Shown here in pieces: positions 15,471 through 17,386 of a stretch of 25,850 nt of DNA (positions are counted from its first letter, which is position 1; each line of letters starts with the position of its first letter). The notes beneath the pieces are model-generated. The model did not search any database. It saw nothing but the letters and a program-made list of their open reading frames with translations, and was not told the DNA's origin. The stretch is taken from the IMG/VR virus record IMGVR_UViG_3300020416_001751, positions 1 to 25,850 of that record, one strand, 5' to 3'. The position numbers and the translations under genes were made by a program. This DNA comes from a virus.

Positions 15471-16175
15471 TTACTCCTTGCAAAAATAGGCATGTGAGGT
15501 GCCTACTACGGCACAGTCCCAGTGAATACCTTCAAATTCCGCCAGCCAATTTCTGGCGGTCTTATCATCCTTTTTATGCCCGGCTGCTAATAGGACATTT
15601 GTTTTAATAGCGCCCGGATTTGCGGCGAGGTAGCGGATAACCTTTTGGATAAACTGGTGCTTTTTATGCTCGTAATATTGGTTTACAGGCTTTGCTCTGG
15701 TGGTTTTGGCTGGTGCTTGCTGCAATTGCTTTTCGAGTAATGCGGCTTTATCGCGGTAGAGCTGGAGTAATTCGTTTTGCAGTGATTGGTTTGTCTCCTG
15801 CAAATGTTGCAATGCCTGAGTCTGTTGGGGTGAGTGTTGAGCGCTCAATGCTTCGGCCATGCTGTTAAAGGCATTTATGTACGCCTCTTTGATAACCGCA
15901 GCCTGTTTGCCGGTAAAGCCCATGACCAAAAACATAAAGCCGTCTTTGGTGACGTTATACATAGGCATCATTCGCCCATTGGAGTTTTTGAATTCGCACT
16001 GCTCAAAATTGAGCTTTGTGAAATAATCAGAGCAATCCAGTTCTCGAATAGCGCGCAAAACATTTCTGTGTTCTTTTCCAAACACTTCCGCTATGTGGGT
16101 TGAGGGAGTATAAAGCTGGTTATCTTGTACGGATATATAGTGGCGCAAGTCCACATCGGGGAGTTGACTGACCAT
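15471..16175 (-). CDS. Rha-type antirepressor / regulatory protein
   Basis: A 234-aa protein, taking ATG 16175 (MVSQLPDVDLRHYISVQDNQ) because AAGGAG lies six bases upstream; the longer TTG-type frame runs into the leader RNA. Residues about 15-105 are the phage Rha domain (HIAEVFGKEHRNVLRAIREL; YNVTKDGFMFLVMGFTGKQA). A coiled coil follows (115-155). The C-terminus (172-234) is an extra winged-helix-like module (KKDDKTARNWLAEFEGIHW) that it shares with the ATPase upstream. Rha proteins interfere with lysis/lysogeny control. Its ribosome binding site is complementary to an upstream antisense-like RNA segment, so translation is probably RNA-controlled. Confidence 0.88.
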   Translation of the reverse strand: MVSQLPDVDLRHYISVQDNQLYTPSTHIAEVFGKEHRNVLRAIRELDCSDYFTKLNFEQCEFKNSNGRMMPMYNVTKDGFMFLVMGFTGKQAAVIKEAYINAFNSMAEALSAQHSPQQTQALQHLQETNQSLQNELLQLYRDKAALLEKQLQQAPAKTTRAKPVNQYYEHKKHQFIQKVIRYLAANPGAIKTNVLLAAGHKKDDKTARNWLAEFEGIHWDCAVVGTSHAYFCKE

Positions 16176-16181
16176 ATTGGT

Positions 16182-16237
16182 CTCCTTGAGATTTTTTAAG
16201 TAAATTCGACTGCCAGTTAGTAGCTGGTAGCCGGGTG
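16182..16237 (-). promoter_or_regulatory. Target segments a and b in the rha leader
   Basis: Segment a (CACCCGGCTA, 16237-16228) and segment b (ATCTCAAGGAG, 16192-16182) are complementary to a' and b' in the upstream RNA. Segment b includes the complete rha Shine-Dalgarno AAGGAG. A small hairpin (CCAG/CTGG, near 16211-16226) lies between them. Confidence 0.6.
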
Positions 16238-16240
16238 TCA

Positions 16241-16316
16241 ACTAGAGCATCTCAAGAAGCTCCGGGCCTATTTCCCCAAAGGGTGTTGTATTAACGCCTC
16301 TCCACCCGGCCATTGT
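16241..16316 (-). ncRNA. C4-type antisense RNA candidate
   Basis: On the minus strand, a' (TGGCCGGGTG, ending at 16303) can pair over 10 bp (one G-U) with segment a, and b' (CTTCTTGAGAT, 16259-16249) over 11 bp (one G-U) with segment b over the rha ribosome binding site. b' is presented in a hairpin loop: stem GAGC/GCTC (16262-16259 with 16248-16245) around a 10-base loop. The order a'-b'-a-b upstream of an antirepressor gene is that of the C4 RNA of phages P1 and P7, which silences ant. The complementarity is read directly; the family name is inferred from architecture and needs a covariance-model search. Confidence 0.6.
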
Positions 16317-16433
16317 ATGGACGGATTTATCCCTGTATCGCAGGCATAAAAAAGCCGCAAGGCTATCGGGTGCGGAAGGCCGCTTGAGAAATTCTAGTGC
16401 GGCCACCTTAATCCCGAATGTGCGGCGTGTCAA
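16242..16433 (-). CDS. Doubtful 63-aa Icd/Ash-like ORF overlapping the antisense RNA
   Basis: A TTG-started ORF with AAGGAG four bases upstream. The peptide (MTRRTFGIKVAALEFLKRPS; APDSLAAFL; HTMAGWRGV) resembles short ORFs annotated as Icd-like or Ash-like at C4/P4-type immunity loci. Much of it coincides with the terminator-like hairpin and the a'/b' segments, so it may be an artefact of a conserved RNA. The TTG start is also part of a perfect -35 box. Confidence 0.3.
   Translation of the reverse strand: MTRRTFGIKVAALEFLKRPSAPDSLAAFLCLRYRDKSVHTMAGWRGVNTTPFGEIGPELLEML
16348..16375 (-). terminator. Terminator-like hairpin in the antirepressor leader
   Basis: CCGCA and TGCGG form a five-bp stem with an 11-base loop, followed on the minus strand by CTTTTTT. 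It lies between the leader promoter and the antisense segments. It could cause early termination, as in P4-type immunity, or end transcription from the ATPase gene. Confidence 0.5.
16405..16433 (-). promoter_or_regulatory. Promoter for the C4-like RNA / rha unit
   Basis: A perfect -35 TTGACA (16433-16428) and a weak -10 TAAGGT (16410-16405) at 17 bp. Three GTTGT repeats spaced exactly nine bases apart lie just upstream (16457-16479) and could bind a regulator. Confidence 0.5.
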
Positions 16434-16480: not shown

Positions 16481-17386
16481 CTAAGCGTTTTGAATAAGGT
16501 GGTAGATAATGCGGGTATGGCGTTTGGTGCTCTGCCAATAAATACCGTCATACTTATCTAGCCGTGCTCTGGCTGATTTGTCGTCTTTGGCGAAACCGGC
16601 TTTGTTGAGCAAGTCTGTTTTGTTTAACTGGTTGTCCTGGAGTAGGGTGTTTTTAATTAGCGAAACGAACTCTATGTCCTGCTCAGTGGCTTGTGCTTCG
16701 ATTAAGTCGACTTCAGTTAGTGCCAGGCTATTAGGGTTAATGTCGAACGCCTTATCAACAATGGCTGCACGCTCTTTTTTGACTTCCAAAATTACACCGA
16801 CTGATTCATTGCTGCCCAGTTCTCGCTTTTTCAGGCGGTACATGTTGTCTACTGAATTGCGAATGGCATTGCTGCCCTGGTAGTTGCGACCATCTTTATT
16901 GCTGTGCCCGAGGATCAGGATGGTGCCGCCAGCCTCCCGGATATCCTTGAGCATGTTCATTACAGCCGCAATTTTTGCTTCATTACTTACATCGGCAAAG
17001 TCCCGTAAGCTATCGATTACAAAAAACATGTTTTCGAACTGATTGGCGGTGGCGTTTTCAGATAGTGTTTTTAGTAAGTCGAACGAGGGCAGCGGGCTTT
17101 TACTGCGCTGCACATAATGTAGGTTAGGGTGGCTGGCTATCAGCAGGTCGTTAACGTTACGTTCTTTCAGCACACTTAATGGATTATCAAAATCCAGATA
17201 GAACACCTGCGTCATTCTAACCGCGCAGTATTTGGCCAGAGCAAAGGCCAGCCAACTTTTACCGTTACCGCCATCGGCATAAACCATGGTGATCATCCGC
17301 TTGGTGATAAAGCCCTCGATCACAAAGTCGATCTTTTCGTTAAAGTCTGCCTCTGACAGGCTCGCCTGGGTGAGTATGTGTAGCAT
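16481..17386 (-). CDS. RecA-fold (RepA-like) ATPase with C-terminal winged-helix module
   Basis: A 301-aa AAA_25/RepA-like ATPase. Walker A is ADGGNGKSW (38-46), Walker B MFFVIDSL (120-127), and GGTILILGHSNKDG (153-166) carries the sensor-like GHSNK motif of hexameric RepA/KaiC-type enzymes. After residue about 237 comes an extra module (LLNKAGFAKDDKSARARLDK) that is similar to the C-terminus of the Rha protein next door. Such ATPases unwind or remodel DNA in replication of plasmids and phages. A replication or recombination role is likely. It is not part of the canonical Mu gene set. Confidence 0.82.
   Translation of the reverse strand: MLHILTQASLSEADFNEKIDFVIEGFITKRMITMVYADGGNGKSWLAFALAKYCAVRMTQVFYLDFDNPLSVLKERNVNDLLIASHPNLHYVQRSKSPLPSFDLLKTLSENATANQFENMFFVIDSLRDFADVSNEAKIAAVMNMLKDIREAGGTILILGHSNKDGRNYQGSNAIRNSVDNMYRLKKRELGSNESVGVILEVKKERAAIVDKAFDINPNSLALTEVDLIEAQATEQDIEFVSLIKNTLLQDNQLNKTDLLNKAGFAKDDKSARARLDKYDGIYWQSTKRHTRIIYHLIQNA

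Follow-up and report, generated by a model that had tools for sequence, protein, structure and literature searches.

The stretch of DNA analysed here, referred to as the window, comprises 25,850 nt of the virus record IMGVR_UViG_3300020416_001751. A Mu-type gene pair is present in it, in which a MuA-type transposase (PF09299 Mu-transpos_C and rve) is followed by a MuB-type ATPase (AAA_22/TniB), and the assignment of this DNA to a Mu-like phage in an earlier note was thus confirmed. No Mu-type repressor gene was identified in the window. As shown in Table 1, rha is separated from an AAA ATPase gene (16481-17386) by a leader of approximately 230 nt on the minus strand. The Rha protein matched phrog_518 (Rha-like) as well as phrog_373 and phrog_63 (anti-repressor). 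Given the family it belongs to and the antirepressors that occupy this slot at other loci, the Rha of the window is probably an antirepressor or a lytic regulator. In addition, Rha and the adjoining AAA ATPase were observed to have a common C-terminal domain (BLASTP E 1e-8; phrog_6357).

Table 1. Features of rha and its leader in the window
Feature	Position	Strand	Remarks
rha (Phage_pRha)	15471..16175	-	ATG start (16175); Pfam PF09669; putative controlled gene
b2, AUCUCAAGGAG (b of the earlier note)	16182..16192	-	Covers the whole rha SD AAGGAG (16187-16182)
Candidate a2, AACUGG	16213..16218	-	Predicted 6 bp with a', one G.U included; weak in the window
Structured antisense RNA, three-way junction P1/P2/P3	16228..16312	-	Rfam RF02221 match 16311-16221
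P1 3' strand, CACCCGGCUA (a of the earlier note)	16228..16237	-	Continues as ACCA (16228-16225), RCCA motif of RNase P-like type
True a', P3-P1 junction strand CUAGUUGA	16238..16245	-	Covariation and P1 C4 analogy
b', P3 apical loop CUUCUUGAGAU	16249..16259	-	Antisense to rha SD; P3 hairpin GGAGC..GCUCU
P2 conserved core, UUAAUACAACACCCUUUGGGGAAAUA	16269..16294	-	RF02221 signature; Rfam model alignment
P1 5' strand, UGGCCGGGUG (a' of the earlier note)	16303..16312	-	Pairs over 10 nt with CACCCGGCUA, one G.U
Terminator-like element, CCGCA-N11-TGCGG-CTTTTTT	16348..16375	-	Between b1 and the RNA; found by eye
b1, UCUCAAG	16383..16389	-	In leader; 7 bp with b'
a1, ACUAGA	16393..16398	-	In leader; 6 bp with a'
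Candidate promoter, TTGACA-N17-TAAGGT	16405..16433	-	Hexamers and spacing identical in relatives L002 and L080

The 3' end of the antisense RNA is located 52 nt upstream of rha. In the window, the promoter scanner made no call on the candidate promoter, and the terminator scanner (loop limit 8) made none on the terminator-like element. A GGCCGC..GCGGCC hairpin is possible around a1/b1, and the transcript start may fall within it. A 63-aa ORF running through the leader (16242-16433) was rejected, since it was not conserved and its frame was broken in L002 and L080.

When the whole window was scanned against Rfam, a single RNA was found, namely sRNA-Xcc1 (RF02221), with a score of 53.4 bits that is only just over the gathering threshold of 53 (E 1.1e-8 in a permissive cmscan of 701 nt). 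The earlier note had called the RNA C4-type and had proposed a search with the Rfam C4 covariance model; this search was run, and C4 (RF01695) gave no match at E<=10 (cmscan, 701 nt). Rfam has no clan common to RF02221 and C4, and neither model detects the other family at E<=10. The RNA of the window is therefore a member of sRNA-Xcc1 by covariance model and the claim fell as far as membership of Rfam C4 is concerned, but the antisense aim at the rha ribosome-binding site, the anatomy of P1 c4 and the covariation described below uphold the C4-type reading itself. Unlike sRNA-Xcc1 as first described, the RNA of the window is not in an integron cassette but in a virus record that also encodes MuA and MuB. 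Since many further RF02221 loci above threshold were found in virus contigs, an integron location is not defining for the model.

The RF02221 model consists of a closing stem P1, a P2 with an internal-loop core (UAAUACAA..GGGGAA), a hairpin P3 and a short strand joining P3 to P1. The minimum free energy fold of the antisense RNA (-35.7, z -2.5) contained P1 and P3, while P2 was not in its RF02221 form. The 10-nt and 11-nt complementary segments in the order a'-b'-a-b, on which the earlier note was built, agree with the minus-strand coordinates, and so does the display of b' in a hairpin loop. By the RF02221 model, however, a'/a is no antisense-target match but stem P1, with which the RNA closes on itself. 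Only b'/b is left as such a match, and the argument from two independent chance matches is lost. P1 stems covaried across the family (z 16.3, among the matches listed) in a test by swapping, which was chosen over pair counts because the MAFFT alignment misaligned the P1 strands. Moreover, RCC or RCCA followed P1 in 65 of 84 family members among the matches listed, which, together with ACCA after P1 in the window, is as would be expected of an RNase P substrate.

The P3 loop pairs with b2 over 11 nt with one G.U, and the statement that the second match covers the entire rha Shine-Dalgarno sequence (SD) was correct. Dinucleotide shuffling of the 32 nt upstream of the start codon gave a score as high as that of b'/b once in 5000 trials. 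Shuffling of the entire 52-nt 3' leader did so in 3 of 2000 trials, and when any pairing between the two halves was counted, 5 of 1000 shuffles did. Taken alone, the b'/b match is thus moderately unlikely by chance. By the last of these counts, a match of 11 nt arising by chance somewhere in the 135-nt leader is no extreme rarity.

Compensatory changes in relatives, which the earlier note had named as its own test, were found in two syntenic Mu-like contigs, L002 and L080, and in 84 loops among the matches listed. Both contigs keep the order AAA - RNA - rha; their AAA is 82% identical, and their Rha is 75% (L002) and 70% (L080) identical to that of the window. The loop of L002 differs from the window's and matches its own SD and leader (CUUCUUUUUUG / CAAAAAAGGAG / CAAAAAAGCGGC), and the same holds for the loop of L080 (CUCUAUGUGG / UCACAUAGG / CCACAUAG). 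Such retuning in the two relatives and in the 84 loops among the matches listed refutes chance complementarity, to which we give next to no probability. The predicted duplex energies of loop plus junction strand were also compared in five loci, namely the window, L002, L080 and the Shiga-phage loci L074 and L076, the latter two of which carry the window's leader type upstream of AntA/AntB antirepressor genes. Each of the five loci had its own leader as the strongest predicted partner, and for four of them the own SD region likewise came first. In L002, a further RF02221 copy, degenerate and scoring 43 bits, was noticed between the intact RNA and rha (~1850-1950); despite this copy, the loop of the intact RNA still matches the rha SD.

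Family loci were collected over viral contigs and genomes by a pattern of the P2 core only, blind to loop and target, which gave at least 192 usable loci. Among the matches listed, 84 loops each differing by more than 2 edits were kept, and their pairings were compared with 10,000 swap permutations. The mean score of b' with b2 was 16.97 for own targets and 11.66 for swapped ones (z 19.6), and that of b' with the leader was 18.74 and 14.79 (z 15.0), while a' gave z 16.0 with a1 and z 11.2 with a2, all for these 84 loops among the matches listed. In all four pairings, none of the 10,000 swaps reached the observed mean, for loci that are not independent in descent and with window sizes and scoring set after a first look. 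The sense-strand control, in which the reverse complement of the loop was used, was null for the same 84 loops among the matches listed (z -0.1 and -0.4). When swaps were limited to the window's leader type (n=25 among the matches listed), the result for b' was the same (b2, 19.24 vs 11.68). In the first wide test, with windows of 140 nt, the mean was significant, yet the own target ranked first in only 5 of 93 among the matches listed, because short matches are common; within 32 nt upstream of the start codon the result was clear. A loop set picked by the covariance model added only 3 loops not already in the sample, too few to be of use.

Since loop and target change together in dozens of viruses and bacteria, the RNA upstream of rha is, on sequence evidence, almost certainly a dedicated off-switch, that is, a C4-type antisense RNA on a scaffold other than that of C4. 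One word stands at b1 and b2 and is inverted at b', so that the matching words could also be read as DNA operators for a DNA-binding protein, two of them in direct and one in inverted orientation. G.U vs A.C counts at the flanks do not clearly speak for RNA (30 vs 17 at b2, 21 vs 31 at b1), and as proof of RNA pairing these counts were discarded as not discriminating. The operator reading is nevertheless very unlikely, because the RNA scaffold covaries and always has the inverted copy in its loop, because b2 is at the SD, because the junction a' and its site a covary too, and because a transcript of the RF02221 family has been mapped in Xanthomonas.

The interval 16182-16316 proposed earlier holds the RNA and its SD target, but leaves out the second target copy a1/b1 in the leader (16398-16383) and the terminator-like element behind it, an arrangement like that of P1 c4. 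The bipartite a1+b1 duplex was predicted at -20.6 kcal/mol, equal to the prediction for the SD-side duplex. Among the matches listed, b1 and b2 share one pairing site in the loop in 57 of the 60 SD-matched loci. The CI RNA of phage P4 is a leader-derived antisense RNA that has complementary sites on both its upstream and its downstream side and causes early termination. Likened by description, its leader antisense logic resembles that of the window, whereas its structure is different. Leader pairing rather than SD pairing might be the main function, either in an attenuator like that of P4 CI or with the leader RNA as a decoy, as proposed for IsrK. Among the matches listed, b1 was matched in 83 of 84 loci vs 60 of 84 for b2, b1 was separated from the RNA by a T-run of 4 or more in 75 of 83 relatives, and the leader-only set (n=24) still gave z 7.5 for the leader match with an SD match at chance level. 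The short IsrK RNA, furthermore, acts in trans on its own read-through transcript (PMC4825925). On the other hand, the SD covariation is stronger in phage loci (z 19.6 overall, among the matches listed), and in the window the b2 pairing (11 nt) is longer than that of b1 (7 nt). We therefore hold a main function in the leader to be possible but somewhat doubtful.

For the C4-type off-switch as a whole, in which a leader with a1/b1 precedes a freed RNA that blocks the rha SD in trans, the leader is paired as well and Rha stays silent in the lysogen, we consider the following course very probable. The leader transcript would start approximately 230 nt upstream of rha and run through a1/b1, the terminator-like element, the three-way-junction RNA, b2 on the rha SD, and rha. 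By analogy with C4, the RNA would be freed by a cut at the base of P1. The freed RNA would pair in trans through b' with b2, so that ribosome binding to the rha mRNA is blocked. Pairing of b' and the junction a' with a1/b1 may make the leader terminate early; alternatively, the short leader transcript may serve to titrate the antisense RNA, as has been reported for IsrK (PMC4825925). Since an IsrK-type RNA is reported to activate rather than repress its downstream antirepressor via leader RNA (PMC4825925), the leader interaction could have either sign. In the lysogen, Rha would be kept silent, and a superinfecting phage of the same specificity would be silenced too. The RNA and its target are on one transcript, with b2 starting 35 nt past P1, and an action in cis only could be imagined, in which the leader would sequester itself by pairing of the loop with the SD on the same RNA molecule. 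We regard this as improbable, because the leader copy b1 would compete, P1 C4 of the same anatomy is processed and trans-acting (PMC5320573, PMC8546580), and sRNA-Xcc1 was found as a free 88-nt RNA (PMC2996969).

The genes downstream of the 60 SD-matched loci among the matches listed appear from their families to be mostly of antirepressor type. Their Pfam domains were Bro-N (13), Rha (11), KilA-N (9), ORF6N (7), P22_AR_C (7) and AntA (5), in a tally where one protein may count twice, and PHROGs labels most of the leading families anti-repressors. Of 24 loci without SD match among the matches listed, 21 were scanned, giving Bro-N in 9, the XAC0095 family in 5 and SymE toxin in 4. A Xanthomonas integron copy upstream of symE has already been described, without a C4-type reading (PMC12444791). 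In the SymE-type integron loci L232, L238, L270 and L285, a1/b1 adjoins the RNA at a distance of 30-34 nt from the core on its upstream side; no terminator lies between them, and there is no SD match.

Among known systems, C4 of phages P1 and P7 (RF01695; targets c4-a1b1, RF03163) is an antisense RNA processed to 77 nt that acts in trans and blocks the ribosome-binding site of the antirepressor (PMC5320573, PMC8546580). In the annotation of phage P1 c4, the order is a1, b1, c4 RNA, a2, b2 and icd/ant; the P3 loop UUUCACUAAC pairs with b2 GUUAGUGA, and the junction CUGUCAA with UUGACAG (a1, a2). The window is alike in its a1-b1 leader, terminator-like element, three-way-junction RNA, candidate a2, and b2 at the ribosome-binding site, in having b' as the P3 loop and a' as the P3-P1 junction strand, and in the approximately 50 nt from RNA to start codon. 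The two differ in P2, which is a plain hairpin in C4 and carries the UAAUACAA...GGGGAA internal-loop core in the window, and in P1, which has 17 bp in C4 and about 9-10 bp in the window. C4 targets an antirepressor operon, and the window RNA precedes rha, whose product is likened to Rha and anti-repressors by its PHROGs matches.

IsrK/STnc1160 of Gifsy-1 (RF01394) resembles the window in its short terminated leader RNA, a read-through transcript with an internal RNA, and an antirepressor downstream, but its scaffold is of C4 type rather than RF02221, and its short RNA was reported to be a net activator of the antirepressor (PMC4825925). The P1 c4 leader with a1/b1 (L317, 81-162) scored 35 bits as isrK, so that IsrK probably corresponds to a leader RNA from a C4 module.

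In Xanthomonas, sRNA-Xcc1 is a mapped 88-nt RNA (PMC2996969). It has been described as an integron-encoded, trans-acting, virulence-linked sRNA (Chen et al. 2011, as cited in PMC12444791), and host or plant targets have been predicted for it (PMC12189769). The copy in the window, in contrast to a trans-acting virulence sRNA, belongs to a phage, and its matched targets are local. Copies of RF02221 are being interpreted as virulence or cross-kingdom sRNAs (PMC12189769, PMC8780938). The searchable literature that names sRNA-Xcc1 contained neither the term 'antirepressor' nor a link to C4; subscription journals were mostly beyond this search, and an earlier link is possible there.

The mechanism class is already known from C4, and the scaffold is a known Rfam family that is read here as C4-type. 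RF02221 may be a second, widespread and re-targetable C4-type scaffold, with phage copies on antirepressors and leader-only chromosomal or integron copies on SymE and XAC0095-family genes. In that case, multiple loops in one genome would be separate circuits, and mobile elements would be using the 'virulence sRNAs' for immunity or addiction. We consider the chances for and against this wider proposal to be evenly balanced. Copies of RF02221 scoring over the threshold were present in 40 of the 398 genomes that were sampled from one phylum and in 16 of 60 sampled from the family of Xanthomonas hortorum, and RF02221-related DNA was found in 517 of 5,426 E. coli genomes. The reading gives a concrete, testable mechanism for RF02221, a family present in sampled genomes and phage records. 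The local target of each copy would be predictable from sequence alone by the loop/target code, which also predicts prophages with common immunity, and C4-type control would be extended to a transposable phage. Thirteen RF02221 modules (L393-L405) were observed in the X. hortorum genome G001, and five of the six that were parsed pair best with their own leader, which suggests separate circuits. Stacked antisense modules were also seen in one phage, with isrK+C4 twice and sRNA-Xcc1 three times (L083 2422-3753; record G006).
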